From Styela clava (lineage: Eukaryota > Chordata > Ascidiacea > Stolidobranchia > Styelidae), in the NCBI RefSeq assembly GCF_964204865.1, contig NC_135252.1, forward strand, positions 11,119,383 to 11,183,382: a stretch of DNA of 64,000 nucleotides. The letters run 5' to 3'. Below the pieces are notes generated by a model. It was not told the origin of the DNA, did not search any database, and was given only the letters and a program-made list of their open reading frames with translations. This document shows, one piece after another, positions 1 to 55,344 of this stretch. A program made the position numbers and the translations under genes. How positions within the stretch are numbered: position 1 is the first letter of the stretch; each line of letters begins with the position of its first letter.

Positions 1-3000
1 AGACAAAAAGGCTGAAAGCGAATCCGGAAGATTAATTTTATGCACATCGCTATAGATAACAGTTTGTAAGCATTTTATGAATAGAGAAACAATATCAAAA
101 TAGTCTTCGCAAGATTTTTCAACATATTTTAACACAAGTATACATTCAAACTTAGCTCTAATATCAAAATAAATGATGATAAGCAATCAACAAATAATTC
201 TTACAAAATATATGAAAATAGCCATTCCGGCTGGGGGTAATATTACATCGCAACACGCTATTAAACAGGAAACTTGTTTGAATTGTGAACACAATTCGTG
301 TCTCTCCTCAACATCACTTTACCTGTACAATTTGCGCTTCCTTCATCCCAATTACCATCCCTATTTGTATCATTATTTTCATTTGAATCTGTGCACGTTG
401 CTTGTTTATCTCCATCATTATAATATCCATCCAAGCAAGTAATATCGCATGTATCATTGAAACTATTGCTGGTGCAGTTTGATTGTTGCGAATTTGAAAT
501 TATTGTGAATGAAACAGGACACGTGATAGCTATGGTATATAGTAGAACGTTAATTACAAATATTAAAAAAAATTATAAATCATCACTTTGTTATCTTTAT
601 CCAAATATACAAAGAAAGTAACCTTCAATAAATTTAGACACGTGCGATCATCTTTTATTACCAAAAATCCATCGAGACCAACAATAAATCATCTAAAAAT
701 GGGACACATACATACACCAAAGATAACGATATTCATTTCTACATATAATATGCACTTCTTCAAAACAACTTGAAAAAAAAACTAGACATATAATATACTG
801 ATACATCTTTTTCGTAAATATTTTGGTATATATTTTTGTGAATATCGCAATCACAACCAAAACTTAAGGTATAGACAAAAAGGCTGCAAGCGAATCCGAA
901 AGTTCAATTTCATGCACATCGCTATATAGATAACAGTTTCTAAGAATTTTATGAATTGAGAACCAATATCAAAATAGTCTTCGCAAGTTTTTTCAACATA
1001 TTTTAACACAAGTATACATTCGAACTTAGCTCTCATAACAAAATAAATGATGATAAGCCATCAACAAATAATTCTTACAATATATATATAAATAGCCATT
1101 CCGACTGGGGGTAATATAACATCGCAACACGCTATTAAACAGGAAACTTGTTTGATTTGTGGAGACAATTCGTGTAATTTTGTCCTATTTCTGAAATTTT
1201 TGTTTGCTTCTCCACAACATCACTTTACCTGTACAATTTGCGCTTCCTTCATCCCAATTACCATCTCTATTTGTATCATTATTTTCATTTGAATCTGTGC
1301 ATGTTGCTTGTTTATCTCCATCATTATAATATCCATCCAAGCAAGTAATATCGCATTTATCATTGAAATTATTGCTGGTGCAGTTTGATTGTTGCGAATT
1401 TGAAATTATTGTGAATAAAACAGGACACGTGATAGCTATGGTATATAGTAATATGGTAAATACAAATATTTGAAAAATTATAAATCATCACTTTGTTATC
1501 TTTATCCAAATATGCAAAGAAAGTAACTTTCAATATACTTAGACACGTGGGATCATCTTTTATTACCAATATCCATCGAGACAAACATTAAATCATCTAA
1601 AAAAGGGACGCATACATACAGCAAAGATAACGATATTCATTTATACATATAATATGCACTTCTTCGAAACAACTTGAAACAAAAACTAGACATATATTAT
1701 ACTGATACATCTTTTTCGTAAATATTTTGGTATATATTTTTGTGAATATCGCAATCACAACCAAAACTTGAGGTATAGACAAAAAGGCTTGAAGCGAATC
1801 CGAAAGACAAGTTCATGCACATCGCTACAGATAACAGTTTGTATGAATTTTATGAATAGAGAACCAATATCAAAAAAGCGTTTACAAGTTTTTTTTAAGA
1901 TTACTTAACACAAGTATACATTCAAACACAGCTTTAATATTAAACTAAATGATGATCAGTCATCAACAAATAATTCTTGCAATATACATGAAAATAGTCA
2001 TTCCGATCGGGGGTAATATAACATCACAACACACTATTAAACAAAAATTTTTTTTAATTTGTGAAGACAATTCGTGTAACTGTGTCCAATTTGTGAAATT
2101 TTTGTTTGCCTCTCCACAACATCACTGTACCTGTACAATTTGCGCTTCCTTCATCCCAATTACCATCTCTATTTGTATCATTATTTTCATTTGAATCTGT
2201 GCATGTTGCTTGTTTATCTCCATCGTTATAATATCCATCCAAGCAAGTAATATCGCATGTATCATTGAAACTAATGTTGGTGCAGTTTGATTGTTGCGAA
2301 TTTGAAATTATTGTGAATGAAACAGGACACGTGATAGCTATGGTATATAGTAAAATTTTAATTACAAATATTTAAAAAATTATAAATCATCACTTTGTTA
2401 TCTTTATTCAAATATGCAAATGAGGTAACTTTTAATAAACTTAGACACGTGCGATAATCTTTTATTACCAAAAATCCATCGAGACAAACATTAAATCATT
2501 TAAAAAGGGGTCGCATACATACACCAAAGATAACGATATTCATTTCTACATGTAATATGCACTTCTTCGAAACAACTTGAAACAAAAACTAGACATATAT
2601 TATACTGATACATCTTTGTCGTAATTATTTTGGTATATATTTTTGTGAATATCGCAATCACAACCAAAACTTGAGGTATAGACAAAAAGGCTGGAAGCGA
2701 ATCGGAAAGACAAGTTCATGCACATCGCTACAGATAACAGTTTGTATGAATTTTATGAATAGAGAACCAATATCAAAAAAGCGTTTACAAGTTTTTTTTA
2801 AGATTACTTAACACAAGTATACATTCAAACACAGCTTTAATATTAAACTAAATGATGATCGGTCATCAACAAATAATTCTTGCAATATACATGAAAATAG
2901 TGATTCCGATCGGGGGTAATATAACATCACAACACACTATTAAACAAAAAATTTTTTTAATTTTTGAAGACAATTCGTGTAATTGTGTCCAATTTGTGAA

Positions 3001-6000
3001 ATTTTTGTTTGCCTCTCCACAACATCACTTTACCTGTACAATTTGCGCTTCCTTCATGCCAATTACCATCTCTATTTGTATCATTATTTTTATTTGAATC
3101 TGTGCATGTTGCTTGTTTATCTCCATCGTTATAATATCCATCCAAGCAAGTAATATCGCATGTATCATTGAAACTGATGCTGGTGCAGTTTGATTGTTGC
3201 GAATTTGAAATTATTGTGAATAAAACAGGACACGTGATAGCTATGGTATATAGTAAAATTTTAATTACAAATATTTAAAAAAGTATAAATCATCACTTTG
3301 TTATCTTTATTCAAATATGCAAATGAAGTAACTTTTAATAAACTTAGACACGTGCGATCATCTTTTATTACCAAAAATCCATCGAGACAAACATTAAATC
3401 ATCTAAAAAGGGGACGCATACATACACCAAAGATAACGATATTCATTTCTACATATAATATGCATTCCTTCGAAACAACTTGAAAAAAAAAAAAAGACAT
3501 ATAATATACTGATACATCTTTTTCGTAATTAATTCGGTATCAATTTTTGTGAATATCGCAATCACAACCAAAACTTGAGGTATAGACAAAAAGGCTGAAA
3601 GCGAATCCGAAAGATCAATTTAATGCACATCGCTATAGATAACAGTTTGTAAGCATATTATGAATAGAGAAACAATATCAAAATAGTCTTCGCAAGTTTT
3701 TTCAACATATTTTAACACAAGTATACATTCAAACTTAGCTCTCATATCAAAATAAATGATGATAAGCAATCAACAAATAATTCTTACAATATATATGAAA
3801 ATAGCCATTCAGGCTGGGGGTAATATAACATCGCAACACGCTATTAAACAGGAAACTTGTTTGATTTGTGAAGACAATTCGTGTCTCTCCACAACATCAC
3901 TTTACCTGTACAATTTGCGCTTCCTTCATCCCAATTACCATCCCTATTTGTATCATTATTTTCAATTGAATCTGTGCACGTTGCTTGTTTATCTCCATCA
4001 TTATAATATCCATCCAAGCAAGTAATATCGCATGTATCATTGAAATTATTGCTGGTGCAGTTTGATTGTTGCGAATTTGAAATTATTGTGAATGAAACAG
4101 GACACGTGATAGCTATGGTATATAGTAATATGGTAAATACAAATATTTGAAAAATTATAAATCATCACTTTGTTATCTTTATCCAAATATGCAAAGAAAG
4201 TAACTTTCAATATACTTAGACACGTGGGATCATCTTTTATTACCAATATCCATCGAGACAAACATTAAATCATCTAAAAAAGGGACGCATACATACACCA
4301 AAGATAACGATATTCATTTATACATATAATATGCACTTCTTCGAAACAACTTGAAACAAAAACTAGACATATATTATACTGATACATCTTTTTCGTAAAT
4401 ATTTTGGTATATATTTTTGTGAATATCGCAATCACAACCAAAACTTGAGGTATAGACAAAAAGGCTGGAAGCGAATCCGAAAGACAAGTTCATGCACATC
4501 GCTACAGATAACAGTTTGTATGAATTTTATGAAAAGAGAACCAATATCAAAAAAGCGTTTACAAGTTTTTTTTAAGATTACTTAACACAAGTATACATTC
4601 AAACACAGCTTTAATATTAAACTAAATGATGATCAGTCATCAACAAATAATTCTTGCAATATACATGAAAATAGTCATTCCGATCGGGGGTAATATAACA
4701 TCACAACACACTATTAAACAAAAAATTTTTTTAATTTGTGAAGACAATTCGTGTAACTGTGTCCAATTTGTGAAATTTTTGTTTGCCTCTCCACAACATC
4801 ACTGTACCTGTACAATTTGCGCTTCCTTCATCCCAATTACCATCTCTATTTGTATCATTATTTTCATTTGAATCTGTGCATGTTGGTTGTTTATCTCCAT
4901 CGTTATAATATCCATCCAAGCAAGTAATATCGCATGTATCATTGAAACTGATGCTGGTGCAGTTTGATTGTTGCGAATTTGAAATTATTGTGAATGAAAC
5001 AGGACACGTGATAGCTATGGTATATAGTAAAATTTTAATTACAAATATTTAAAAAATTATAAATCATCACTTTGTTATCTTTATTCAAATATGCAAATGA
5101 AGTAACTTTTAATAAACTTAGACACGTGCGATATTCTTTTATTACCAAAAATCCATCGAGACAAAAGGGGACGCATACATACACCAAAGATAACGATATT
5201 CATTTCTATATGTAATATGCACTTCTTCGAAACAACTTGAAACAAAAACTAGACATATATTATACTGATACATCTTTTTCGTAATTATTTTGGTATATAT
5301 TTTTGTGAATATCGCAATCACAACCAAAACTTGAGGTATAGACAAAAAGGCTGGAAGCGAATCCGAAAGACAAGTTCATGCACATCGCTACAGATAACAG
5401 TTTGTATGAATTTTATGAATAGAGAACCAATATCAAAAAAGCGTTTACAAGTTTTTTTTAAGATTACTTAACACAAGTATACATTCAAACACAGCTTTAA
5501 TATTAAACTAAATGATGATCGGTCATCAACAAATAATTCTTGCAATATACATGAAAATAGTCATTCCGATCGGGGGTAATATAACATTACAACACACTAT
5601 TAAACAAAAATTTTTTTTAATTTTTGAAGACAATTCGTGTTCATGTGTCCAATTTGTGAAATTTTTGTTTGCCTCCCCACAACATCACTTCACCTGTACA
5701 ATTTGCGCTTCCTTCATGCCAATTACCATCTCTATTTGTATCATTATTTTCATTTGAATCTGTGCATGTTGCTTGTTTATCTCCATCGTTATAATATCCA
5801 TCCAAGCAAGTAATATCGCATGTATCATTGAAACTGATGCTGGTGCAGTTTGATTGTTGCGAATTTGAAATTATTGTGAATGAAACAGGACACGTGATAG
5901 CTATGGTATATAGTATAATTTTAATTACAAATATTTAAAAAATTATAAATCATCACTTTGTTATCTTTATTCAAATATGCAAATGAAGTAACTTTTAATA

Positions 6001-7700
6001 AACTTAGACACGTGCGATCATCTTTTATTACCAAAAATCCATCGAGACAAACATTAAATCATCTAAAAAGGGGACGCATACATACACCAAAGATAACGAT
6101 ATTCATTTCTACATATAATATGCATTCCTTCGAAACAACTTGAAAAAAAAATCTAGACATATAATATACTGATACATCTTTTTCGTAATTAATTCGGTAT
6201 ATATTTTTGTGAATATCGCAATCACAACCAAAACTTGAGGTATGGACAAAAAGGCTGAAAGCGAATCCGAAAGATCAATTTTATGCACATCGCTATAGAT
6301 AACAGTTTGTAAGCATTTTATGAATAGAGAAACAATATCAAAATAGTCTTCGCAAGTTTTTTCAACATATTTTAACACAAGTATACATTCAAACTTAGCT
6401 CTCATATCAAAATAAATGATGATAAGCAATCAACAAATAATTCTTACAATATATATGAAAATAGCCATTCAGGCTGGGGGTAATATAACATCGCAACACG
6501 CTATTAAACAGGAAACTTGTTTGATTTGTGAAGACAATTCGTGGTTCCCCACAACATCACTTTACCTGTACAATTTGCGCTTCCTTCATCCCAATTACCA
6601 TCCCTATTTGTATCATTATTTTCATTTGAATCTGTGCACGTTGCTTGTTTATCTCCATCATTATAATATCCATCCAAGCAAGTAATATCGCATGTATCAT
6701 TGAAACTGATGCTGGTGCAGTTTGATTGTTGCGAATTTGAAATTATTGTGAATGAAACAGGACACGTGATAGCTATGGTATATAGTAGAATGTTAAATAC
6801 AAATATTTAAAAAATTATAAATCATCACTTTGTTATCTTTATCCAAATATACAAAGAAAGTAACTTTCAATAAATTTAGACACGTGCGATCATCTTTTAT
6901 TACCAAAAATCCATCGAGACAAACATTAAATCATCTGAAACGGGGACGCATACATACACCAAAAATAACGATATTCATTTCTACATATAATATGCACTTC
7001 TTCGAAACAACTTGAAACAAAAACTAGACATATAATATACTGATACATCTTTTTCGTAAATATTTTGGTATATATTTTTGTGAATATCGCAATCACAACC
7101 AAAACTTGAGGTATAGACAAAAAGGCTGAAAGCGAATCCGAAAGATCAATTTCATGCACATCGCTATAGATAACAGTTTTTAAGAATTTTATGAATAGAG
7201 AACCAATATCAAAATAGCTTTTACAAGTTTCTTTAACATTTGTTTAACACAAATATACAATCAAACTTAGCTCTAATGTTAAAATAAATGATTATTAGCA
7301 ATCAACAAATAATTCTTACAATATATATGAAAATAGCCTTTCCGATTGGGGGTAATATAACATAGCAACATGTCACTATTAAACAAGAAAATGATTTGAT
7401 CTGTGAACACAATTCGTGTAATTGTGTCCGATTTGTGAAATTTTTGTTTGCTTCTCCACAACATCACTTTACCTGTACAATTTGCGCTTCCTTCATTCCA
7501 ATCACCATATTTATTTGTATCATTATTTTCATTTGTGTCTTTGCATGTTGCTTGTTTATATCCATCGTTATAATATCCATCCAAGCAAGTAATATCGCAT
7601 GTATCATTGTAACTATTGCTGGGGATGCATGTTGATTGTTGTGAATTTGCAATAAATGACGATTCAGGACACATGATAGCTAAGGTAGATAATAAAGATT
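1..7700. repeat. Tandem array of ~0.9-kb units, each with one CCP exon
   Basis: Equivalent donor sites recur at 323, 1229, 2131, 3034, 3906, 4808, 5694, 6566 and 7473, giving spacings of 906, 902, 903, 872, 902, 886, 872 and 907 bp. Introns are almost as conserved as exons, which indicates very recent amplification or gene conversion. A higher-order period of three units is visible: sequence near 1369-1584 recurs at 4046-4261 (shift 2677) and that near 3034 recurs at 5694 (shift 2660). Units at 323, 3906 and 6566 share a shortened segment just 3' of the CCP donor. The rightmost unit (7473) is the most diverged. Short reading frames elsewhere in the units are intron noise. Confidence 0.9.
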
Positions 7701-24300: not shown

Positions 24301-27300
24301 TATTGGTAACACTCTTAGTAGTGCCTATACCAGAGACAATGCAAGAATATTCTCCTTTAGGAACAGACTCATCGTGTGACAGAATCAAATTAGACAATAC
24401 AGAAGTAATTGTTCCAGATTGTAGTTGGAAAACATTTGATGATGAATCCGAGGTAATAAGTACGCCGTCTTTATACCACCCTAGCGTTGAAGATGATATA
24501 TTTGGTGCTGAGCAAGTGAATATTGTAGCCGCGCTGTTGGACATCTCATCTATTTCTAAGTTTGTAGATTCTATTGATGAAAAATACACAATGAGCTTAC
24601 TATAGTATAACCGAGCGTTTGAAGTTGATCGGAAAAAATACTACCGATTTAAACAATATTCAATTGGCATTTGACAATATTCAATCGATAACTAATGTAA
24701 TCAGTCTCAATAAACCTTTACAATTTATTTGTAGAGTAGTCTTGATTTTATTGAATTGCGTCCTTCTATAATATATATATCATGATTGAACCATTTTGTC
24801 AACCATAATGACAAAACAAAATAACGAAATTTTTCAAGAGACATCTTAGACTAAACTTTAAAATTTAAAAAAGAAATTAAAACTGAGTATTTTTTGTCGA
24901 TAAGATATAACGATGTGCGGAATTGCCATGAATGACAACTGGACAAGAACTAAATTTATCATATTTATTTTTGCTTCTACTATATATACCCAACATTAGT
25001 AAAAAAAAGATCTTGACACTAACCTCCTGAAAAAACTTCCAGAATGACAATTTTTTCTGTATTGGCATGCGTAGTTCTTTTGCAAATATATTCACCACCA
25101 GCTGACGTTGTTTCCCCCGACCAGCCAGCTGCCTTCGATATAACGAGTGATTGCGAATATTGTTCGGGGCCAATACTTTGATAAACCGGTCTTTCAGAGT
25201 CGGTGTCAATTAATTTGCCATTGGTGTACCAAGAGAGTGTTACATCATCTTCGGAATAGCACGTAATGATGACGTCATGCTCCGGGTATTTGCCGGATAT
25301 TATATTAACCTTGCTTACATCTGGGTCGAGATATAATGAGTAGACTCCTATTGCAACACATGATAAATATTATAAGAATAGTACAATATCATATTCCTTC
25401 GAGCTCTGTGTATCATAAAAAGAGCAAACAAACGATGAGTAGATAAATGAACTTGTTGTAATTTGCAAATAAATCGATGTTACAGAAAAAACATTTTAGC
25501 TGATGACAATAACAGTATCACTTGGAGGGTATTAAATCGATACTTAAACTAAGATTGTAATAAAATGTTAGCTAGTATGCATGAGTATTCAGTCAGAGTC
25601 ACGGTCATCAGCCATCCTTATTTGCAATATGCACAAAATTAATAAGCAGTAAATTATACGAGGTAAGGCTAAAAAGAAACGGGACTGACGTCACAGATTG
25701 CGCAACATGATTACCCATCGGTAATCAACACTTTTGCAGTGTGGCGTAATATGTGTTCTTTGTTTAACAGCTGTTTTGACACAATATCGCAATTATTTTT
25801 GCTTTTCAGGATCCATAAGTGAATGTGATAAATTTTTTGTTGAAAAAAAAATGCTGTGCGAGGTCTGATTGAGTTTTTTTGCGATAGGGGGTTCAATTAA
25901 AGAATGACGACTGAGCAAAGAAGTAACATTAAATTTTGTGTCAAACTTGGGAAAACGGCGACTGAAACTTTGCAGATGTTGCCTGATGTTTATGGAGATT
26001 CTTCCATGTCCAGAACAAGAGTTTTTGAATGGCACAAGCGATTTGTGGAAGGCAGGGAGGATGATCCGAGGTCAGGGAGGCCTTGCACTTCCACTACTGA
26101 TACAAACATCGAAAAGGTTTGGCAGTTGGTTCGCAGTGACCGTCGCTTAACAATTCGCGTCATTGCCAACGGAATGGGGATAGACAAAGAAACGGTCCGC
26201 AACATTTTGGTTGACACTTTGGGAATGCGAAAGGTGTGTGCCAAAATGATGCCAAAGGCTCTTGAGTTGACTGAGGAGCAGAAAGCTCAACGATTGAATG
26301 CATGCCGAGTTGACGTGCATTTTTCCAAGTTTGACACAAAATTTAATGTTAATTCTTTGCTCAATCGAATTGAACCCCCTCAATTGAACCCCCTATCGCC
26401 AAAAAACCCAATCATACCTCGCACAGCATTTTTTTTTCAACAAGAAATTTATCACATTCACTTATGGATCCTGAAAAGCAAAAGTAATTGCGATATTGTG
26501 TCAAAACAGCTGTTAAACAAAGAACACATATTACGCCACACTGCAAAAGTGTTGATTACCAATGGTTAATCGTGTTGCGCAATCTGTGACGTCAGTCCCG
26601 TCTGGTACATGAAAGACTCATATAAATACTCGCTTTTTCAAAAAGAACGCACACCAAAAAATAGCATTAAAGTTGAAATACCATCGTACACTAAATGATT
26701 CTATAGTATTTTACTATCAGGTTAATTAGTATAGCAATCTTTTGACCTTTACCGACTTAACACAAAAGTTATTTCATCTAACAAAATTTGTTTTACATAG
26801 AATGCAGAATGTACACACAAAACCCGATATACAATGTAAATTATTTGTTAATTTGAAATTGTATTAACTATCACTATTCGACCTACCTTTAATTTCAATT
26901 TCAATTCTTTTCTTTTCGTCTACTTTTTGGTTAGCTGCAATGCATTCATATACCCCGCCTTCCGAAAATCCGACATCAATTAGTATGTTCAAAATGGTAG
27001 TTTTCGCTGAAATGTCTTGAAAAACTGACAGACTTTGATCCGTCGGAATAACTTCGCCTTCTTTGTACCAGTAGAGTGGAAGAGACTTAATATCGCTAAG
27101 TATGCATGATATCGATAAATTATTGTCAACACTTTTGTCGAATATAAAATTTTCTTCTGGCGGATATACGAAGAGATGTATGGTCACTGTAATAGAAAAA
27201 TATGACTTTAGATTGTTCGTAAACATTGTATTCTCGTGAATTTATAAATATATGCCCACACGTTACTCCTTACTGACGTTCATAAATGTATGCGTAAACC

Positions 27301-38771: not shown

Positions 38772-41460
38772 TTACATGGTATATAAATCGACTGGCTTCG
38801 ATTCCGTTTGAACTTCAGTAGGTTGAACATTGGGTTTATAGAGTCTTAAAAGATAACAATTCTATTTTTTATAACATTTATATGCCTATATACAAGCCAG
38901 TGTTATTGCACACACTGTTTTTGTGAAATTGATGAATACAGAAATGATGCATCACCAGTTTCCTCTTTCCCAGTTACCTTCTCGAGGAAGCGTTACCTAT
39001 ACGTACCACAGTACATAGAAAGAGGTTGACCTACTGGCAGAATTATCTGAACAAATTTCCTGTCGGTGTCAAATACAGGTTTTCCAGCCTTATATGCGGA
39101 AATTCTATGACGTAATACTGCGCATTGGTAGTGTTTAAATTGTTAACGCAAATTGTATTTCAAACATGTAATTATTGCATTGCACGATATAAATATATAT
39201 ATATAAGTAATAAAGCCTATATTCGTGCCATGCGACTGATGAAAGTTTCTGTCATTTTATTATCCATTGTCCATTTATCCATTTATTATCAAATATTGGA
39301 GACGAGTTAACTATATGTTGTGTAGTTCAGTGTTTAGAAACTCGTTTATTTATTTTCAATATCACCTGTCATAAAGTCCATCTTCACCCACATTTTCTTG
39401 CCCAGCTTGGGTATGAACGAATTTTAAATTCAACTGTTGATACTCTGTATCATCGACGTCACTATTTTTATTCAATACCCTGAAACATATATAATTTTTG
39501 TCACATCGGAACAGTTTTTAGGTTTCAAGTTCGAAATAAAAATGAGTGTAGAATTTTCGATCTAGATTCTAGAATCACAATGCTTTGCTCTAGAATGTAT
39601 TATGAATATCCATTTAACCTATACTATATCCTTTAGGAATTTAAAAATATAACTGTGAATGATACTTTCAACACTAATGATAAAATGCGAGAGATGCACA
39701 CAGTGTCACCGGCTGTAATGTTTGCAAAATTTATAAAATTATGCAAATCCGAAGCTAAAGGTTCCGTTTGTTGTTTTGTTTATCAAATTTTTTGAAAACG
39801 TAATCCATCATAAACAATCATAACTTATACCGTTATCGGTCATTAAATGTCTATATCTGAATTATTTATATATTGATGTTTGCCCACGCGTATGATGCTT
39901 CTTTGTCCTCTGGTGATGATGGTTCATCCGCTTCATCAGCTTGATTGTGAACTGGTTGTAAATTTAGCTGTTGGTAGTTTGAATTATCAGGTATTTTATT
40001 TTTGTCCAATTCCCTAAAATACAAACAAATACAGTTCAAGAAACGTCCAACGTATCCTGGCGATCCCGAAACACGATGTTTCGCACTAAACGTGTTTACT
40101 AAAATTTGATTTATCTTTAGTAGTTCTTTCCAAATATTTCTGTGAAATGGCTTCGAACAATTTATGTTTTGAATAGAAACCACCAACTGGATTATTTAAA
40201 TTAAAATTATTATTCAGATTGATTCGTCATATTCAAGCAAGTGTATGTTTTGTGAAATTGTGTTTGGGCAAAATTCTAATAAAACCGCACGGAAGTAAAA
40301 TTAAAATATGCATCACAGTCTTGGTGCTTTATCTTGATAAACTGGCTAAAAACAATTAATTTAGTAAAAGCAATTTTGTGCCTAACCAAATCAGTTGTTA
40401 AATTACTATACTGGCCATATATTGGTAGACGTTAGCTCACGCATAAAACATATCTTCGCCCTTTGACTGTTCATTGTCCACAGAAAATCCAGCAACGTCT
40501 TCAGCAGGCAAGAAACCATCATCATCAATTATTGCGTATTCGCTTCAGAATAAAAATAATCTGATTTGTAAACCATATTTGTATGTTCTTCTCCATTTGA
40601 GATATTGATTAAGTGTTATTTGAAACGAAGTAAAAACTCAAACCAGAAGTTTAAGTTGAATAGCCTTGGCCAAATAACAAGTTACAGCTAATTTAATTAT
40701 TCAAGGAATTTTCCGTTTAATGTATTAGTAGAAACATTGTCATGATCTTGAATAGTCGAACGATGAAACCAAGATGTATGTGCCAAGTGCCATAGTGCAT
40801 ATATGCATGATGTAATCAATTTACATAAAAATATATCATCATACTTATTAGGCAAAAAAACGGGCTTTCGATTATGAAGAACAACTTCTTCATATGTTCC
40901 ATTGAAAGTTCCATTTGGTACAGGTGCTTTTCTGTAATAAATTGCAATATAGTTAAGTATTGTTGGATACCACATACCAATAGTACATTTTAATATGCGA
41001 CATGGCAGGCAGTAAGATAATAATTCTTGGATAGAATTAGGTCCCGTTACCAGTAGTTAAAAGAGAAAAGGGCGACTTTGGTCCTGTAAACACGAACACA
41101 ACAACAACTTAAAAAAATTGTACTCATACTTTATGTTAGAAATAATGAAATTCAAAAAGAAAAATTTTTTTTCGATTTTGTAAAATATTTGATTGTTGGT
41201 AAGGAAGTAAAGAAATTAATAATACGTGACTACCCTTCTTTGATATATGTCTAATTGTCTACAACTTACTCAACATTTCGCTTGTCAGCCGGTTCGTTTG
41301 TTTTCTGTCTGTAAATGGAATATTGTTGTGAGTTACTTGTTTGTTCGATGAAGGTAACATGATGTTTATTTTTTGTTTTACCTTATATAGAAAAAATAAT
41401 ATGCAATTCAGATGACAGCAATTAAAACAAACACTCCTATGACCGCGCCGGCTATGGGAC
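38772..41460 (-). pseudogene. Headless tail block: transmembrane plus cytoplasmic exons with a nonsense codon in the TM exon
   Basis: Exons homologous to genes 5 and 6: TM 41382-41460, 41270-41308, 40845-40931 (YEEV), 40441-40542 (YAII, FYA), terminal cassette 1 39866-40013 (YQQL, stop) and terminal cassette 2 39366-39479 plus 38772-38844 (YQQL, LYTM, stop TAA 38772-38774). The TM exon carries TGA at 41408-41410, where genes 5 and 6 have GGA, cutting the protein inside the membrane segment. No ectodomain lies between it and the gene 5 tail. All cytoplasmic exons remain open with good splice sites and phase 2-2, so it may serve as extra 3' cassettes for gene 5 if its TM exon is skipped. Otherwise it is a recent pseudogene. 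Confidence 0.7.
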
Positions 41461-41554: not shown

Positions 41555-41584
41555 CTTAAAAGATAACAATTCTAGAATCACAAT

Positions 41585-42767
41585 TAGGGTTTTGTTTTTT
41601 ATCAATTCTAAAAAAAACATCGTGTTTTAAATCAAATATTTTCTGTATTATTTGTATTTTTTATTGAAATACCCCCTGCATCGCCGCGAAACTACGCCAA
41701 AACGTTGCATTCTGGCAGATGCACACGCAGCCGGAATTATAATTTCAAAATATAAGTAAAATTTTATAATTTGACTTTCGCTTCTATTGCGTACATTTAT
41801 CGCCATGCTTGTATCTCCACCAAAGTCATAAGATTATACCCGGAATGTTTAGCCGAGATATCAGAGAGACGTTTTGAGTAAGAAAAATTATGAAAATTAG
41901 CTCACGAGCCCACTACAAAAGCAATTAGATCAAGTGCAGCCCTCCGGCAAAACGAGTGGGTTGCGATAATGAAGAATATGCTCATATCGGCGGTAATCTA
42001 CTAATATAAACGACGAGACACCCTAGCGGCTAGGGTCACCATATTTAAAAAAGCAAAATTCCGGACAGTGCATGCTATTTTCATGACCTCGTAGTAAAAA
42101 ATATGCGCACGGTACGAAATAACAATGTTCTGTATTATCAGATTCCGGACATTTGAGCGTTTTTTAAATTCTTTCCGGACGCAAAATTTGACCCTAAATT
42201 CTGGACGGTATGGCAACCCTACCCTAGCTTAGCCTATGCTAATTGTAGGAGTCCTCGGATGCAAAGACGCCACAACTAATCTGTTATGACGCCTAAATAT
42301 GGATTTCGAGTTCATGTATTGACATTTTCCTCATAAAATGAGGGCATTATTACGGCTAATACTGTCCGGTTAATTTATGCTTAGCATGCTTTGTTTTCAA
42401 GGTTAAAGTGATGGAGCTTTTCAAGGTTATACGAACTCATTTATTCGATCGCATTTTCGCGATTTCAATTTTGGCAAGATGGTTTCGTCGCAACAGGCTC
42501 GTTCAATTAATGGCTTATCGGTTGCGTCTTACTGCGCCAACCACTGAACTACAGCTTGAGAAGGTGTACATAAGCCTCTATCGATATTTGTGGCGTTTTG
42601 AAAGATTTATTGCAAATAAGAAGCGCTTGGCAAGTTTTTACGTCCATTTTTCTTCAACCTATTTAATACAAAAAAATCAAATAGTACAGCCATTTTGAAC
42701 AAAAAAGGCATAAAAAACTTGATTTAAAACAATTGTTTTAAAACAATTCTTTTTGAACAAATCCCTA
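41585..42767. mobile_element. hAT-type element between the two tail blocks, 1.18 kb
   Basis: Termini TAGGGTTTTGTT and, inverted, TAGGGATTTGTT are flanked by a perfect 8-bp duplication atcacaat (41577-41584, 42768-42775). The original site is visible intact near 39570. A smaller hAT-like segment (about 42022-42221, ends TAGGGTCACCATAT and TAGGGTTGCCATA inverted) appears nested. A 96-codon plus-strand frame at 42408-42698 lies inside and matches nothing I recognise. Confidence 0.8.
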
Positions 42768-46000: not shown

Positions 46001-48502
46001 TGTTTATCTGCTGAATCGAGTTTAGCGAACATGAGTGATTTTTTCATCATTTTCAAGTAAAATCAGGTAGAGCTTGAGAAAGAAGAGTTGACCTTTTGCA
46101 TTTGTCCGCTTTAGGCCGACCGTGACGCGATATTGAACGGTCGCTAGTTGTGCGACAACTTCACGATCCCGAGATAGCCATGGCGACCAATTTGGTTGTA
46201 ATTTTGGTCCATTTGGAAGATGCTCGGGGAACACTAGTGTTACGCGGAACACAGTTTGGGAAACGCTGCTATAGATTATAGAAGGTAAATAGTAGATTAT
46301 AAAATTAGTGAATGATTGGCTTCTGGCTATGAAACTAGCAACTGTATCTAACATATTTAAGACAGTGCGTAAACTTGAAATCTTTTAATAAATGGGTGGA
46401 ATTTATATAAGTGCTAACACTTTTAACATTTAAATTAATACCTGCGTTTACTGTCGTCTCGGATATTGTTATTGGTATTGACGATGTCATTGATTCATCT
46501 ATGTTAGCTGTTATAGATATTGTTCCCGTTTTCTCTACAATTTGTTGAACAGTACAATTCGGTGAAAAAAAAATATCCGTTCGCATTTAATATGATACAA
46601 AAAATAAAAATGTCAGACGTCAAGGCATTTTGTATTTGCTTTTGTCAAATAACAATTTATAGTCCTTGTTCGTGGAATTATATTTCTGTCATAAAATATA
46701 TCAGAAAAAAAAGATAATAGGTTTTATCACTATTATTTTCCACGTATTTAGTTTTGCATTCTCAGTATAAATTATGAGTATTTAATAAAGTTATATGTAA
46801 AATTATGAAACATGCGTAATATGTGATAAGCATGAAGATCTTGTGACCAAATATACATTTATATGCTATTTTATATACAGAACTATACCAAATATTATCA
46901 AAAAAGCCATTAACGTTATCACTGATGACAAGTGCGATAGCCAAGGTAAGTGGGCTATTGAAACAATTATTATATTAAATTGAATTTCTGGTCGAATTCT
47001 GTTACCTGTAGTCGGCGGAGAACTTTCTTTAGTTGTTTCAACAGGTATTGTCGTTGTTTCTCGTGTTGTACTTCCATCTGTTGTGTACAGTATGTGTTTT
47101 ATATTAATTTACACTTATAAATTTGATGGGTTCAATATGGAGTCCGAATAAAATTATTCAGTTTCTTAATTTGATTCATCAAATAAGAATACATTTTTAT
47201 GCAAATTCATTCTGAGTTTCGCCCCTGCTTTAGATGAATTCAATACACACCAAAGTTATTATTATATAGATATTCAGAGTTTTATGATAATTTCATCAAT
47301 TTAATATTAATTTTGGATGAGTACTGTGTTTCCCCGAAAATAAGACCTACCTGAAAATAGGACCTAGCATGAATTTTAAAAATATTTTTAATATAAGCCT
47401 CCCCTTAAAATAAGAGACCAAGTCGATAGCGCAAAATTGTTTTTGACCTAGTCGATAACAAGAAATATTTCCCACTCGTTTTGACGGATTAATAATCTAT
47501 GTTGTTTAGTAGTTATTTTAAATAAAAACGTGGTATTATAAGTAAATGGATATCGGTTTTCATATTTTGTATATTTGAAAATCTCGTAATTCTTTACTTT
47601 GTAATTTTGTTTTTGATAAATGGAGTTAAGGACATCCCCCGAAAATAGGCCCTAGCGTTATTTTTCGAAAGAAAATTGAAATAAGCCACTGTCTTATTTT
47701 CGGGTAAACACAGTATAGATACTACTTGTAATATATGTCGAATTTGCCGTAGATGTTGTTGGTGTTACCGAGTAGGCTGTTGATGGGTCTGTTGTAACTT
47801 GCTGTGTAGTTGTATCTGCAAAAAAATCCATTACATAGCAGCGACAGATTATAATAGTATCTATAAAGATTAATCAGAAAAATTGGTATGTGGTAATTTT
47901 ATTAATTTTTGCTGATTGAATTGAAAAAGTGTACAACGATTTATAAATCATTGCACAAAATTCCACCGAATAAAGAAATGCAATATAAATTTATCAAATA
48001 ATACACATTATCTATTATCATATTATGCTCTGATCTTGTTAGAATATAAAACGATTAGTCAATGGTTAATTGGCTATAGAACCCGCTAAAAAGATTTTAA
48101 AAGATATTTTTTTCATTTTCTTCTATCAAAACTTGAACATAAGGCTATTTTATTATTATTGAAAGAACTGTACCTACAAACTCAGTCGTAGGAATGTAAA
48201 GATCAAATTGCACTTTTTTCTATATTCTATACATTCGCAAGATTTCATGATAGATGTGCTATATTGTACAAATGAGAGATCATATCAAAAACAATAGGTA
48301 AGTAAAATTAGATTTTACAATATTGAACTTGTGGAGGAGATTGGAGAGATTGAAGATTAAGGAGGAAGAGACCAACAACATCACGTTCAATAACATTATC
48401 CAAGCATGATTTGAAAAATAGAAGATTCCTACCTGCACTGATATCCGCATTTATCAGCCAGCCACGACTAATCAATACGAAGATCAAAGATACAACAAAC
48501 AT
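43067..48502 (-). CDS. Gene 5: Ig-less stalk receptor with ITAM-type tail (285 aa)
   Basis: Exons: signal 48433-48502 (MFVVSLIFVLISRGWLINA); stalk 47726-47815, 47006-47077, 46442-46534, 45249-45326; TM 44522-44600; tail 44410-44448, 43987-44073, 43582-43683, 43067-43214 (stop TAA 43067-43069). Total 858 bp. Gene 4 has an Ig exon between signal and stalk; gene 5 has none, and the deletion scars are readable (see 48172-48190). The extracellular part is therefore only a Thr/Ser/Pro stalk of about 110 residues. The TM GPIAGAVVGVFVLLAVIGIAF has a GxxxG motif and no charged residue. The tail carries YEEV, YAII, YAEL and YQQL; the last two make an ITAM, YAELDKNKIPDDSNYQQL, with the first tyrosine in one exon and its +3 leucine in the next. 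A second, damaged tail block lies downstream. Confidence 0.77.
45419..46268. mobile_element. hAT-type element in a gene 5 intron
   Basis: The left end CAGCATTTTCCAAACTTT and inverted right end CAGCGTTTCCCAAACT are flanked by ctaaagat and ctatagat (8 bp, one mismatch). The matching gene 6 intron near 53770 reads ctatagaaag with no insertion. A Penelope-like, hammerhead-like segment lies inside at about 45620. Confidence 0.75.
45630..45680 (+). ncRNA. Hammerhead-ribozyme-like core, probably from a Penelope-type retroelement
   Basis: CTGAAGA (45638-45644), a perfect 7-bp stem GTCTGAC/GTCAGAC with loop CTTT (45646-45663), then GAAAC (45664-45668). This matches the CUGANGA, stem II, GAAA core of type I hammerheads, which are known in Penelope-like elements. 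A convincing stem III and cleavage triplet were not found, so it may be a partial or dead copy. Confidence 0.4.
47324..47713. mobile_element. MITE with CCCCGAAAATAAGA inverted termini
   Basis: Ends CTGTGTTTCCCCGAAAATAA and its near-perfect inverse, flanked by TA dinucleotides (Tc1/mariner-type target). It lies 12 bp from a gene 5 stalk exon. The equivalent gene 4 intron lacks it. A related degenerate copy is nested at 16768-17176. Confidence 0.75.
48172..48190 (-). pseudogene. Scar of a deleted stalk exon and lost Ig exon in gene 5
   Basis: The sequence acctacaaactcagtcgtag is the 3' end and donor of the gene 4 stalk exon 34149-34208, but it is fused directly to sequence equivalent to 34494 onward. 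The acceptor and most of the exon are gone. A second join near 48335-48385 removes the region corresponding to the gene 4 Ig exon (34687-34992). Confidence 0.7.
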
Positions 48503-50391
48503 AATACAAATCTTTTTATCTAGTTATTGTATTTTGCAATAATATATTATATTTTTACTAGTCAACATGGTTACATCGCATCTTAATCATACATTACCTC
48601 CTGAAAATGATAATTGTAAATATTTGAATACCGACCTCGTTCATTTATATTGTAATTAAATGTCTTAGCGTTTGCTTTGATCATGAATGAATACTCTAGT
48701 CTAGTCCAACATACACCAACCTAGATGCTCTTTGTTATTTGAAGATATTCGATGGAAATTTAAAAAAAAATGGAAAAAAATATATATATATATTCGATGG
48801 CCTACATTAATTTGTGTGTTGATTTCACGAGCGTGCTGGCGATTCATCGCTGATATAAAATACAACAGTTTATTGTTTATTTCAATACCATTGCTTCACA
48901 AAAGTTGCCTGAGGAAAAAATATACACCCTTTCCGAACCGAATAGTCAAATATCACAAATTATTGTCCAGTTTAAAATTTCACAATAGAAGTGTTACAGC
49001 GTCCCATAGTCAGTTGAACACACTAAAATCAATGTGCTATTCAGCTGTCACAAACTTGCATAAAGGTTACAGTGAAGCGAAATGATCTGGAGACAATTTT
49101 TATTAGATCTACTCAACCACAAATGATGACAATCCCAAACAGAATTCTAATCAGAATCATATCGACACCCAGGCATTTGTGCGAACTTATTAGACTATCC
49201 TTCATATAACAACTTGAGGGAAATCTTTCCACTGAATTTGTGTAACTTTCTTATGAGGACCTTCATGTACCCTTCTCTTCGCACCTTTATGTAATAAAAC
49301 TAAGTTATTTGTATATTGTCAGATGGAGCAAAACCAGCCCCTGGAAAAAACATCATCGAACAATTTCTCTATCAGCGCATGATTGCCACCAGGTATATTC
49401 ATGTCGATGATAAATAAAGCACAGCCGGTGTATAGCAAAACGATGTAATTTACCGACGTTTCGTATTTCTATTCAGAATAACTTCATCAAGACATGATAT
49501 GAAAGCACACTAACGTATATATAGAGAGAGAAAAGCAAGAAGAAAGAAAAAATTATCACGTCAAATTCGAAACGTCCGCAAATTACATCGTTTTGCTACA
49601 CACCGGCTGTGCTTTATTTATCATCGACAATTTCTCTATTGTTGTATATGTTTCATTTAATGGGGAACAACTGCAACGTTTTGACTCCAACATTCCTCCA
49701 CCATAACCATACGTGTTTTCATTTATTTATTCGAATAAAGACATCATAGTAAGCTAAAAGGTATATTAGGTGGAAGGCGAAGTTATATTGTGGCATAATA
49801 TACAATCAATCAAGTTCAAACATTGTATCTTACTAGTATGATTCATAGCAATGTTCTTGAAATGTTGAAAATATCAAACAATAATATAAAAAAATATTAA
49901 ACAGTTCTGTATAATATATAGTATTTAATCTTCAAAATATTGTAGAAATCCATGTAAGATTTACAGTTTTCTTCATCTTGGCATACACAGTAGGTTTTCA
50001 CTCGTCATTCTCAACGAAACTATTAATGTCTCCACTTTTCTTTGATTTGTTTACCCTGGTGAAATGTTGATAAGATATCAGATAATTCATTTTAAGTATC
50101 TGTAGATTTTTTATAATACCATTCTGAATATATAGGGATATTTGACTTGGCACCGAAGTGCCGATAAATATCAGATATTTATTATTCACTTCAAATCAGT
50201 ATTTGTATTGAAGTTCACTATCGTTCAGACGTTAATTTTCAAATGCTAAAAGTGTAGCAGTGTATAAAAATCTCTGAAAGTGACATTCCGCGATCACAGC
50301 AAAGAAAGCGATACTATTGACTATACATGTCTGGTTCGGCTCAAGATGACCATGTTATAATATGTCTATAATATAGATATCAATTTAATAC
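48503..50391. other. Intergenic between gene 5 and gene 6, duplicate of 35.5-38.7 kb
   Basis: Colinear with 35500-38770 apart from insertions and deletions. It lacks the GGGCC-rich element but has its own insertion at 49373-49627. No gene was recognised; short frames here are not conserved with the partner copy. Confidence 0.55.
49373..49627. mobile_element. Retroposon-like insertion with inverted repeats and 12-bp target duplication
   Basis: The duplicated target caatttctctat is at 49361-49372 and 49628-49639. The insert has facing arms gtcgatgataaataaagcac / gtgctttatttatcatcgac (49403-49450 and 49580-49628). It also contains taccgacgtttcg with gaataacttcatcaa, reminiscent of Penelope-type ends. 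The paralogous site near 37915 is empty. Confidence 0.55.
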
Positions 50392-51108
50392 TTACATGGT
50401 ATATAAACCGACTGGCTTAGATTCCGTTTGAACTTCAGTAGGTTGAACATCGGGTTTATAAAGTCTTAAAAGAAAACAATTCCATTTTTTATCAAATATT
50501 TAGAATTTGCCAAACACTATGCCCATGTATTTCCTTATATATATAAAGATCAGTGGTATTACAAACGATGTTTTTTGTGAAATTGATGAATACAGAGATA
50601 ATGGATCATCTGTTTCCTCTTTCCCTGTTACCTTCTCGAGTAAGCGTTACAATAGGTTGACCTACTGGCAGAATTGTCTGAACAGACTTCCTGGCGGTGT
50701 CATGTACAGGTTATCAAGCTCTATATGCGGAAATTTCATGACGTAGTACGTACTACGCGTTGGTTGGTAGTTCAACGCAAATTGTGTTAAATATATGCAA
50801 TTATTGCATCGTATGATACAAGTACTAAAGCCTATATTCGTGCCTTGCAACTGATAAAAGTTTCTGTCCGCTCACAACGATTGAAAAATTAACAAGATAC
50901 TCTGGCTGTCCATTTGTTATGAAATGAAGACGGTTGAACTATATGTTGTGTACTTCAGGGTTTAGAAACTCGTTTATTTATTTTCTGTTATCACCTGTTA
51001 TAAAGTACTTCGTCATCCGGATTTTCTGGCTCAGCTTGCGTATGAACGGATTGTAGATTCAACTGTTGATACTCTGTATCGTCGACGTTACTATTTTGAT
51101 TCAATACT
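50392..51108 (-). CDS. Gene 6 alternative terminal exons (cassette 2)
   Basis: Exon 50995-51108 begins after ttttag and its first base completes the same alanine codon as cassette 1. It encodes VLNQNSNVDDTEYQQLNL and ends at LYNR. Exon 50392-50464 continues LYKPDVQPTEV and stops after GLYTM. It is reached by skipping 51473-51620, or is the older end. The same pair is kept open in the tail block at 38772-39479, but only the second exon survives (as an orphan) beside gene 5. Conservation of both cassettes in two copies argues that both are used. Confidence 0.65.
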
Positions 51109-54100
51109 CTAAAACATATTTAGGTTATGGGTTCGAAATAAAAATGAGTGTAGAATTTTAATTCTGAAAGCCAATGTTTTGCTTTTAAATGTGTTATGAA
51201 AATTCATTTACCTTATACTATAACCTTCAAGAATCTGATAATATAATAAGTTATGAAGCAGAAGTAATTAGCCCTAATGATAAAGTATGAGAGACACACA
51301 CAGTCTTACCGGCTATAATATTGGCAAATTATATACAATTGTGCAATTGCAAAGATAAAATATTTAGGTTCCGTTTGTTGTTTTATTTATCACATTTTTT
51401 AAAAACACAACCTATCAAAAGCAATGTTTAAATAAACCGTTATCAATCAGTAATTGCCTATATCTGAATTATTTATATATAGATGTTTGCCCACGCGTAT
51501 GATGCTTCTTTGTCCTCTGGTGATGATGGTTCATCCGCTTCATCAGCTTGATTGTGAACGGGTTGTAAATTCAGCTGTTGGTAGTTTGAATCATCAGGTA
51601 TTTTATTTTTGTCCAATTCCCTAAAATGCAAATAAATACAGTTCAGGAAGTGTCCAAAGTATCCTGGCGATCCCGAAACACGATGTTTCTCACTAAACTT
51701 GTTTATGAAAATTGGATTCAACTTTAGTAGTTCTTTTCAAATATTTGTGTGCAATGGCTCCGAACAGTTTATGTTTTGAATGAAAACCACCAATTAGTTT
51801 ATTTAAATTAAAATTATTCTTCAAATTATTATTTAAATAGATTAGTCATATTCAAGCAAGAATATGTTTCGTGAAATTGCGTTTGGGCAAAATTCCTATA
51901 AAACCGCACGGAAGTGAAATTAAAATATGCATCACTGTTTTAGTGCTTCATCTCGATATACTGGCTAAAAACAATTGAGTAAAAGCAATTTTTTTGTACA
52001 TAACCAAATCAGTTGGTAAATTACTATAATGGTCATATTTTGGTAGACGTTAGCTCACGCATAGAACATATCCTCGTCCTTTGACTGTTCATTGTCAACA
52101 GAAAATCCAGCAACGTCTCCAGCAGGCACGTAACCATTATCATCAATTGAGGCATATTCGCTTTAGAATAAAAATAATTTATGTTTGTAAAATCATATTT
52201 GTATGCTATATTTAAAGTATTTATGAATCGCTATTTGAAACGAAGTAAAAACTCAAACCAGAAGTTTAGGTGGAATTACGTCGGCCAAATAAGTTAGGCT
52301 AATTTAATTATAGGAATTTGTCGTTTGATGTACTATATTATTGAAAACGATGAAACCAAAACGTATATGCCAATACTATATTATATACTAACCAAAAAGA
52401 CCTAATTTGAATTATTCACAGAAATATATATCATCATACTTGTTGGTCAACACAACGGGCCTTCGATTATCAAGAACAACTTCCTCATATGGGTCATTGA
52501 AATTTCCATTCGGTACAGGTGCTTTTCTGTAAACATTAACAATAAAAATAAATTAGAATTAGGAATTCCAGCACTCTATAACAATACATTCTCAATATCC
52601 ATTAGGACAGAGTTTAGAACACAAATACACAAATATATGGACAAGAAGTTTTGTGTATAGGCTACAACCTAGTAAACAGTGATTAAAAAAGCCGACTTAG
52701 GAAAACGGAACATAGCATTCCTTCAAATTTAAATAGAGATATTCATTTTGATTTTGTAAAATATTTGATTACTGGTTATGAAGTAAAGATAATTAATAGT
52801 ATGCTACTACCATTCTTTAATATATGTCACTTGTCAACAACTTACTCGACATGTCGCTTGTCAGCCGGTTTGTTTGTTTTCTGCCTGCAAATGAAATATT
52901 GTTGTAAATTACTTGTTATTTTGTGGATTGTATCGTGATCTTTATTTTTTTTTTACCTTTTATAGAAAAAATAAAATACTATTCCGATGACAGCAATTAA
53001 AACAAACACTCCAACGACTGCGCCGGCTATGGGACCTACAAATAAAAATAAAAATAAAATCGTTAAATATATGGTAGTAATGATTTTAATCGGTATTATT
53101 TATCGTTCAGAAGGACCAAAATGAATAAAAAAGTTTCCATTCAAAAATATTGCTTTCTACACATGCATGCTTTGAGTCTCATGATCACGTTTATAAAGTG
53201 AATTATCTGAGTTTTTATGAATACGCAATTACATTTTTCTAAAGTCACATCATAAACAACAACTACTATTAGAAAGAATTGTTGTAAAATTGGATTGCAC
53301 TATTAGTTTTTGAAATACCATTTGCAGACTTATACAAAAATACGCATTGTTTGCCAATATAAGGGTCAGCTATGTATTCTCAACTTTAGCATTTTCATTA
53401 CATATTTGCTATCTACTCAGAAAGAAACAACGTTGTTTAAAAATTTCATCATATAGGTCTCGATTCCAAATTCTTGTTCAAAAGGTGATGTAGTAAAAAT
53501 GTATATTCATATTCAAATTACAACCATCTCAATCATGATTCATTCACTGCTATTGCACAACATTTTTCTATTAACTCTACATATTTGTATACATGTACAT
53601 GCATGATATTCTTGTTTACTAATTACCGGCATTATTGGGTGAATTTCCCATAGTTGATGGTATTGTCTGCGTTGTTTTGCCCAGATCGTTGGTTGCTGTG
53701 GAAATTCATGAACTGTAAATTGGCTCATTATATAAATAAAAATGAAAAATAAAAAAATGGAACCTTTGATACTATAGAAAGTAAATTCTAGATTATGAAA
53801 TTAGTAAATAATTGTGGCTTATAGATGCATGTTGTGAAACTAGCAATTGTATCTGACATGTTTATGACACTGCGTAAACTTCACAAAATGGATATGTTTT
53901 TGCTAACACTTCTCACATTTAAATTAATACCTTCGTTTACTGTCGTCCCAGATGTTGTTATTGGTATTGACCATTTACTTGTTTCATATGTGTTAGTTGT
54001 TATAGATATTGTTCCCGTTTTATCTACAATTTATTGAACATTGGAAATGTATTGATTCAGTGGAAAAATTATTTGTTTGCATTTAATATGGTACAAAAAA

Positions 54101-55344
54101 TAAAAATATCAAACGTCAAGGCATTTCGTGTTTGCTTTTGTCAAATAACATTTTATAGTCCCGACTCCTGGTTTGTGGAATTATATTTCTGTCATAGAAT
54201 ATATATATCAGTAAAAAAGATATTAAATTATATCACTATTAATTTGCAAATAATTAATTTTATATTGTCTATATAAATCATATGTGTTCATACCGCTGGT
54301 GTGTTCTGTTGACGGAGAAGATGTTGGATTACACTCCGGTACCGTTGATGTACTGGGTGTACTTGATGAAGCTGTTTGTTTGAATATAAAAAGAAGTTGT
54401 TAAAGAAAGGTTCTCGATAAAATAGTCATGTAAAATATAGCGTTTGACCTGGCTATGTTAGCGTAGTATGTTGAAAATTTCAGCTGAAACCCTATCCCTA
54501 TCACCTATCGTGGGGTATAATAAAATAGGTAGGCAAGGCACAAGCGAGATACTTTCTTCAATTCTTTTTGAAAAGTGGCACTTTAAGTATCAGTGACATT
54601 CAGGAATTTGTTCGGAAAGAAAATGTGAAAACGTATCATGACAAGATATTATAGGCTTTAGATTCCCTTAATTATTATTTCTGTTTTTAATTTTTACAAT
54701 CTTACGTTTAAATATAAGTTTCAATTGCCTAATCTAAGTCATTTGATGGTTTTCGAGCTCTGAGATAAAAATAAAAAAAATCCTAATATTCAATCAAAGT
54801 ACAAAATATGTTAAATTAACTGAGAATTAGACATAAATTGTTTGTTTTGATGAAACGTGATTTTCATATTTAAAGAATTCACACCAGACTTACCTATTAC
54901 GCATACTAGTAAATCTCTCTCTCCATAGTTTGAAGATGTATTGACTTTACATGAATATTCACCGGAATCTGTCAATGCTACATGCTTAGGAAAATATATT
55001 CCCCCGTTGGTTTGATAAACAGAACAGGACTGACTTTTGCTAACTTCGACATTATCTTTCCACCAACTTATTGATGATGTTGATGAGGAATATGAACACC
55101 TTATGGAATTGGAATTTGTATCGAAGTTGTCGGTATCCAATTTGAAATAGTCGGTATTCGGATTAAAAGTAATATCTGTTATAAGATAAAACGAATGTTG
55201 TTGATCACTATAGCACAGAAGACACATAGGTCAAAATATTTGCAACTTACCGCCACTGATATCATCTGAATATATTTCCGAAAACAAATGAAAACCAATT
55301 AATAAGATGATTATGTTCAATGAATTATTGGCGTACTTCAACAT
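50392..55344 (-). CDS. Gene 6: single-Ig receptor with stalk, TM and ITAM-type tail (356 or 369 aa)
   Basis: Exons: signal 55251-55344 (ATG 55342-55344); Ig 54894-55175; stalk 54294-54371, 53931-54023, 53627-53695; TM 52957-53035; tail 52846-52884, 52440-52526, 52059-52160; then either cassette 1, 51473-51620 (stop 51473-51475; 1071 bp total), or cassette 2, 50995-51108 plus 50392-50464 (stop 50392-50394; 1110 bp total). Both keep frame. Ig (residues ~32-125): IRCSYSS...SISWWKDN...LTDSGEYSCKV. The first stalk exon contains a lone cysteine (ECNP). Tail tyrosines: YEEV (~258), YASI (~276), YAEL (~307) and YQQL (~321) in cassette 1. Cassette 2 instead gives YAVL then YQQL at the same spacing plus YNRL and GLYTM. 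This looks like an activating-type receptor carrying its own ITAM; the ligand is unknown. Confidence 0.8.

Follow-up and report, generated by a model that had tools for sequence, protein, structure and literature searches.

The window analysed here is a 64,000-nucleotide stretch of the Styela clava genome (NC_135252.1, positions 11,119,383 to 11,183,382, forward strand), and it carries a cluster of receptor-like genes on the minus strand. Positions are those of the window and run from high to low for minus-strand features; a slash marks an exon border. Gene C has a signal peptide, one immunoglobulin (Ig) domain, a Ser/Thr-rich stalk, a transmembrane segment and a tail in a single open frame. 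Exon 1 (55344–55251) holds the start and the signal peptide and is open to a GT donor in phase 1. Exon 2 (55175–54894) encodes the Ig domain, and the stalk exons follow at 54371–54294, 54023–53931 and 53695–53627. The transmembrane exon (53035–52957) is followed by a juxtamembrane exon (52884–52846, phase 2-2), tail exon t1 (52526–52440, phase 2-2), which contains PYEEV, and tail exon t2 (52160–52059), which contains NEYASI. Junctions are in phase 1 after the signal-peptide, Ig and stalk exons and in phase 2 after the transmembrane, juxtamembrane, t1 and t2 exons. Both complete messages of gene C are open, with GT-AG sites throughout. Support for the Ig domain is modest: the exon frame matches Pfam Ig_2 at 3.4e-06 and 27.7 bits against a cut-off of 27, while the whole gene C protein gives 1.5e-04, below the cut-off. 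The cysteines are 49 positions apart, which suggests a domain that is not V-type.

The end of exon t2 splits an immunoreceptor tyrosine-based activation motif (ITAM). Exon t2 ends ...DEDMFYA in phase 2, with the sequence TAT GC/GTGAGC. Spliced to cassette 1 (51620–51473, acceptor TTTTAG/GGAATTG) it gives YAELDKNKIPDDSNYQQL, and spliced to cassette 2 (51108–50995, then 50464 to 50392 or 50396, acceptor TTTTAG/AGTATTG) it gives YAVLNQNSNVDDTEYQQL. Both cassettes are entered in phase 2, and the sites are AG acceptors and GT donors. Either one restores an in-frame Y-A-x-L, and the second YxxL lies ten residues on, giving YxxL-x10-YxxL. An earlier, sequence-only reading of this DNA had proposed an ITAM made across the junction by either cassette, its first half existing only after splicing. 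The coordinates prove exact, and the frames and splice sites agree. That observation is confirmed, on stronger evidence than at first, though one end probably needs correction (below); the interpretation attached to it is partly supported. Two YxxL/I motifs 6–12 apart are found as YAEL/YAVL-x10-YQQL in gene C and in a second tail block, A, with both ends, and in a third block, B, with cassette 1. Two papers give 6–12 as the ITAM spacing range (PMC6433993, PMC3528668).

The two ends differ in their remaining motifs. Cassette 1 reads ELDKNKIPDDSNYQQL...YAWANIYI before its stop, and its second tyrosine lies in SNYQQL, a consensus inhibitory motif (ITIM), in all three copies (A, B and C). Cassette 2a reads VLNQNSNVDDTEYQQL...VLYN(R)/, and its second tyrosine lies in TEYQQL. 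Cassette 2 adds two further junction-made YxxPhi motifs, YNRL (within VLYNRL in C, where it fits the ITIM consensus; GLYDRL in A) and YTMV or YTIV. The ITIM pattern (I/V/L/S)xYxx(I/L/V) is thus matched by SNYQQL in cassette 1 of A, B and C and by VLYNRL in cassette 2 of C, and is absent from the block A cassette-2 tail. Each tail has four to six YxxPhi motifs. In the cassette-2 tail of gene C, three of the six (YAVL, YNRL and YTMV) owe their +3 residue to the exon that follows; the other three, YEEV, YASI and YQQL, lie wholly within exons. The cassettes had been described as interchangeable. This stands in so far as both are homologous and restore the ITAM, but they look like last exons rather than internal cassettes, and their motif content is unequal.

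The two ends look like alternative last exons, cassette 1 bearing its own stop, and we infer that both are used in transcripts. In gene C, a polyadenylation signal AATAAA lies 86 nt past the cassette-1 stop. The cassette-2 tail had been read as ending in GLYTM, with the stop at 50392. This supposed stop reads CAT/GTAAGTAT, which matches the donor consensus and, as at the other tail junctions, is in phase 2. About 340 bases downstream in gene C and 431 bases downstream in block A, an acceptor, TTTCACCAG, precedes an open exon of equal length with the same stop. Both copies share the phase 2 donor CAT/GTAAGT and continue into another open exon; the GLYTM stop is therefore probably a donor, and the cassette-2 end is probably a third exon, 2c. 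Cassette 2b would then be an internal exon (50464–50396) ending GLYT(M)/. The proposed terminal exon lies at 50055–49998 in gene C (VNKSKKSGDINSFVENDE before the stop) and at 38344–38287 in block A, with products YTMVNKSKKSGDINSFVENDE and YTIVKKSKKSEDKNCFVENDD, so corrected, the gene C cassette-2 tail would end ...GLYTMVNKSKKSGDINSFVENDE. AATAAA follows the exon 2c stop by 267 nt in C and 279 nt in A, and dN/dS (non-synonymous to synonymous rate) for this exon is 0.6, on nine changes. If the putative upstream donor went unused, the GLYTM end would stand.

Blocks A and B belong to gene BA (48502–38287, minus strand), a paralogue modelled with a stalk and no Ig exon. Its signal-peptide exon (48502–48433) is followed by stalk exons at 47815–47726, 47077–47006, 46534–46442 and 45326–45249. 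The model then runs through block B: transmembrane 44600–44522, juxtamembrane 44448–44410, t1 44073–43987, t2 43683–43582 and cassette 1 43214–43067. It is complete and open; its sites are GT-AG and its phases regular (1 outside, 2 inside). Block B has cassette 1 only; its cassette 2a is lost, a remnant 2b lies at 41556–41485, and its likeness to the other blocks ends at 42767. Block A has a transmembrane exon (41461–41381), whose translation contains an in-frame TGA, and a tail made of t1 (40931–40845), t2 (40542–40441), cassette 1 (40013–39866), 2a (39479–39366), 2b (38844–38776, or 38772 when read to the stop) and 2c. Both cassettes of block A are open, with splice sites as in C, and both ends restore the ITAM. 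Gene BA could reach a cassette 2 only by a splice from block B to block A, which would keep the frame open. The same arrangement had been said to be kept at 38772–40542. Its sites, frames and both cassettes do match, but block A is a second tail block and not an independent whole gene. Since its transmembrane exon has a TGA and it sits behind block B, the repeated arrangement counts for less than it seems to.

When the cassette-1 tail was searched as protein against the whole genome, 11 exons matched, all of them on contig C3 (11.092–11.172 Mb): three t1, three t2, three cassette 1, one cassette 2 and one diverged paralogue (locus L025). The L025 paralogue reads FYA/SM-x10-YENV (YASM-x10-YENV) and has a similar transmembrane segment with sushi-like open frames upstream. 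It carries the ITIM-type motifs SYYADI and SKYEDI and, on re-reading, SEYATI. Both the split at FYA and the x10 distance are therefore common beyond the blocks. Tails of this family are found with three kinds of ectodomain: Ig, stalk-only and, apparently, sushi. The Ig exon is confined to the cluster, with three strong genome matches followed by eight weak ones on other contigs. A separate Ig family search gave 75 matches, among which the window's own Ig exons are missing; that search therefore undercounts. Paralogue E (35447–31671, minus strand) has a signal peptide, an Ig exon (34992–34687), a stalk and a transmembrane segment (32112–32034). Its ectodomain is of the cluster's type, but its acidic tail (31812–31671, last exon placed by eye) has no tyrosine as read by eye. 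It lies beside gene BA, and the two might form an unequal receptor pair. Paralogue F (minus strand) runs from beyond position 64000 to about 61660, with Ig to about 63724 and transmembrane from about 61740, the ends being approximate. The protein search found no family tail exons in it. Together with positions 1–520 of locus L011, the segment 61660–64000 holds a signal peptide with a GC donor, Ig, transmembrane and a juxtamembrane exon with a good donor. No family tail precedes gene C, so paralogue F might splice to the tail of gene C or be tail-less.

Chance gives the motif pair rarely. In 20000 shuffles per tail, YxxL/I-x10-YxxL/I occurs in 0.145–0.17% (three tails: C with either end, A with cassette 2). 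Pairs at x6–12 occur in 1.1–1.3% of the shuffles, and in 5.7–8.8% when L/I/V/M is allowed. A window-wide control took the 534 acceptor-like AG sites (280 minus, 254 plus) that a simple filter let through and that are open in frame after FYA. Thirteen of these complete an x6–12 ITAM after FYA; the three copies of cassette 1 are among them, and four more are copies of a single repeat. The cassette-2 acceptors fail the filter, and therefore the control bears only on cassette 1. The two cassettes are themselves homologous (68% over 100 aligned nucleotides, with 23 gap columns; tblastn E 3e-8), and cannot count as two independent hits. The six tail exons have zero indels between A and C, while each of the five introns has 19–103 gap columns. 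The A–C dN/dS, on small counts, is 0.35 for t1 plus t2 and 0.23 for cassette 1, and other pairs give 0.15–0.54. Between t2 and cassette 1 the intron shows 89% identity (A to C), against 76–81% for the remaining four tail introns; this high identity could reflect either regulation or gene conversion.

A candidate partner kinase is present in the same genome. Locus L029 (413–2287, minus strand) has an intronless 624-residue frame with two SH2 stretches and a kinase domain by Pfam. The best PDB hit of this frame is a chain labelled EGFR, in which no individual stretch passes the limit; full-length SYK (4fl2) and ZAP-70 (4k2r) chains come next. Only about 30 residues separate the two SH2 matches, which may bear on the ITAM spacing that the kinase accepts. 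The SH2 survey gave 50 matches, and translations were read around 19 of these, in 10 loci, plus L027 by frames. Among them are SH2 exons that we take, by eye, to resemble SHP-2 (L030), PLC-gamma and RasGAP.

We read the locus as a tandem cluster of tunicate ITAM/ITIM-type immunoreceptor-like genes with alternative last exons, in which splicing sets the output, and put the probability of this reading at about 0.6. The exon layout, the frames, the motif spacing, the conservation among paralogues and the presence of a tandem-SH2 kinase are read directly from the genome; phosphorylation, partner binding and an immune role of the receptors are predicted. A transcript ending in cassette 1 would carry the ITAM YAEL-x10-YQQL, whose second half doubles as an ITIM. 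When cassette 1 is skipped and 2a-2b-2c is used, the tail would carry an ITAM without that ITIM, plus YNRL and YTMV. Upon ligand binding, a Src-type kinase may phosphorylate the tail, after which the tandem SH2 domains of the L029 Syk/ZAP-70-type kinase would dock on the doubly phosphorylated ITAM and an SHP-2-type phosphatase on the ITIM-type sites. Splicing could in this way set the balance between activating and inhibitory signals with the ectodomain fixed. More tentatively, the tail may hold a splice-assembled phosphotyrosine code, in which the next exon joined writes which tyrosines become docking sites. Exons t2, 2a and 2b all end in phase 2 just past a tyrosine (FYA/, LYN/ and LYT/), and the next exon supplies the hydrophobic +3 residue. 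Left unspliced, the three meet an immediate stop after YA, YNR and YTM, as would any GTRA donor in phase 2.

Several observations weigh against this reading. An ITAM in the strict definition has a spacing of 6–8, and at that spacing no match is found in four tails. The claim that x10 is an ITAM spacing therefore holds within the published 6–12 range but not under the strict definition. The pair in the distant L025 paralogue is YxxM/YxxV, not YxxL/I. A near polyadenylation signal after cassette 1 is found in C only, the first signals lying at 394 nt in A and 400 nt in B. Blocks A and B are recent duplicates and the block A transmembrane exon is broken by its TGA, which gives their intactness little weight. 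Gene conversion could account for the close match between copies of cassette 1 and of the intron before it, and cassette 2 has a dN/dS of 0.64 on few changes (8 synonymous, 22 non-synonymous). For the kinase, the best PDB stretches for SYK and ZAP-70 fall in the kinase region of L029. A Syk N-SH2 query matches the first SH2 of L029 at 27% (E 0.006) and matches an SH2 on contig C19 better (44% over 52 residues, E 7.7e-4). The label Syk/ZAP-70 type therefore rests on domain order and kinase similarity.

The receptor family could instead be inhibitory (ITIM-like), its tyrosine pair recruiting a tandem-SH2 phosphatase of SHP-2 type rather than Syk; we consider this possible but doubtful. The SNYQQL of all three cassette-1 copies, VLYNRL in C, the three ITIM-type motifs of L025 and the SHP-2-like exons of L030 would fit it. 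However, the most conserved pair is the ITAM-like YxxL-x10-YxxL preceded by DED or GED, and the A cassette-2 tail has no ITIM. It is unlikely that the tyrosine motifs serve mainly as YxxPhi sorting or endocytosis signals of the AP-2 type and that their ITAM spacing is incidental. YQQL, YAEL, YNRL and similar motifs fit YxxPhi, and every tail has several, but the distance from tyrosine to tyrosine is constant across the three blocks and in the distant paralogue, the first tyrosine follows acidic residues, and a tandem-SH2 kinase is present in the genome. That both blocks are decaying pseudogene parts making no receptor is highly improbable: the TGA in the block A transmembrane exon and the loss of 2a from block B would agree with decay, whereas genes C and BA have complete open frames of 10 exons or more.

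The origin of cassette 1 bears on a further alternative, in which cassette 2 is the ancestral tail in use and cassette 1 a by-product. The end of cassette 1 aligns with the end of t2 plus its donor at 27 of 40 bases in C, counted by hand. Shuffles as good as the cassette-1-end to t2-end alignment number, per 1000, 1 for C, 0 for A and 11 for B. The end of 2a does not align with that of t2 (its score is no better than those of 1000 of 1000 shuffles), and general homology of tail-exon ends is unsupported. The core of cassette 1 is 126 nt long and phase 2-2, up to an old donor that now reads GC/GTGGGC. We infer that cassette 1 was formerly such an internal exon and that its donor changed from GTGAGC to GTGGGC; this change removes the stop there, by which cassette 1 would have become a terminal exon. 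Occasional use of the old donor today would put two ITAMs in one tail. The alternative takes the decayed donor (GC/GTGAGC to GC/GTGGGC) to have left a rare premature termination form. We find this quite improbable, as cassette 1 is the best conserved exon (97% between A and C, with the low dN/dS given above) and the sole intact end in block B.

Set beside known systems, the immunoreceptor-like cluster is closest to the Fester co-receptors (FcoRs) of Botryllus schlosseri. FcoR tails have ITIM, hemITAM or YxxI/L/V motifs, and alternative splicing is reported to exchange ITIM for hemITAM, or the reverse, in oligomorphic FcoR loci (De Tomaso and Rodriguez-Valbuena 2025; PMC12065747). FcoR splicing is described there as mostly between the transmembrane and Ig/sushi parts, and not all FcoR haplotypes lie in the fuhc locus (PMC12065747). 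Like FcoRs, the genes described here are clustered tunicate type I members of the immunoglobulin superfamily (IgSF) with tail motifs of the FcoR kind in long tails. In the corresponding region, the three stalk exons of gene C are all phase 1-1. The layout differs: FcoRs have a V-type Ig, a sushi and two C2 Ig domains, whereas the present genes have one Ig (or none, or sushi-like repeats) and a Ser/Thr stalk. The fuhc FcoRs lie beside fester and HECT E3 genes, and no such linkage is found here, with none of the 56 HECT matches on C3, the contig of this cluster. By description, then, the cluster looks as if it works like the FcoRs while differing in these two features.

A second ascidian case is the two-ITAM glycoprotein of Halocynthia roretzi, which we take to be the one named A74. 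It is a hemocyte membrane protein (PMC5465252), and by description it is likewise an ascidian blood-cell membrane protein with ITAMs; alternative tails are not mentioned in the available part of that paper. In shrimp and Daphnia Dscam, splicing gains or loses ITAM and ITIM motifs in the tail, with two alternative stop-codon exons in shrimp (PMC6851185). Arthropod Dscam is likewise an IgSF protein with alternative tail exons, but there the motif is included or lost, whereas here either end rebuilds the same ITAM. The TCR zeta/eta gene also has alternative C-terminal exons affecting an ITAM; eta loses part of the third ITAM, whereas here both ends keep it. FcgammaRIIA has a long-spaced ITAM (x12) in the receptor's own chain (PMC6433993), compared with x10 and two alternative ends here. 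A literature search, with subscription journals mostly outside its reach, found no description of a pair of alternative ends either of which rebuilds one ITAM across a junction. The kind is already known; what is new is the variant, a motif built at the junction with two possible ends. Vertebrates have the tunicates as their sister group. Should both ends prove to be in use, the locus would provide a compact germline receptor in which ectodomain and ITAM stay constant and inhibitory or extra docking motifs change via the last exon. It would also mean that IgSF receptors are tuned by tail splicing in a locus without fuhc-type HECT linkage.

Two identities were considered and set aside. Identity with the fuhc locus was dropped on the HECT result for C3 and on the HECT cluster of contig C14, in which a pattern search found no convincing Ig- or sushi-like frame. 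That cluster comprises five of the 56 HECT matches, at 7.68–7.72 Mb, and one short fragment; its frames (L042, L043, L045 and L046) are intronless, with N-terminal parts read as RCC1-like. An origin from Hydractinia Alr, suggested by the Ig-stalk-transmembrane layout, was rejected because a single locus (L010) has, on one strand, a cellulose-synthase exon together with GH6 exons. This combination is not known outside tunicates and marks the genome as a tunicate's.

The rest of the window holds other repeats and genes. Positions 1–7696 form a tandem array of about eight units of about 890 bp, each with a sushi-like exon, and seven long self-alignments within it are 87.8–93.5% identical. Sushi-like frames continue in L024 and L025. 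A separate minus-strand gene at 28988–22302 has five Ig-like exons, some with weak matches, a transmembrane-like frame at about 22.4 kb and an additional exon (28988–28518) without a Pfam match. Amid its Ig exons, a plus-strand frame of 222 residues (25901–26569) resembles a mariner-type transposase by eye, and an inverted repeat lies at 25679–25955 and 26601–26320 (92.6% identical).

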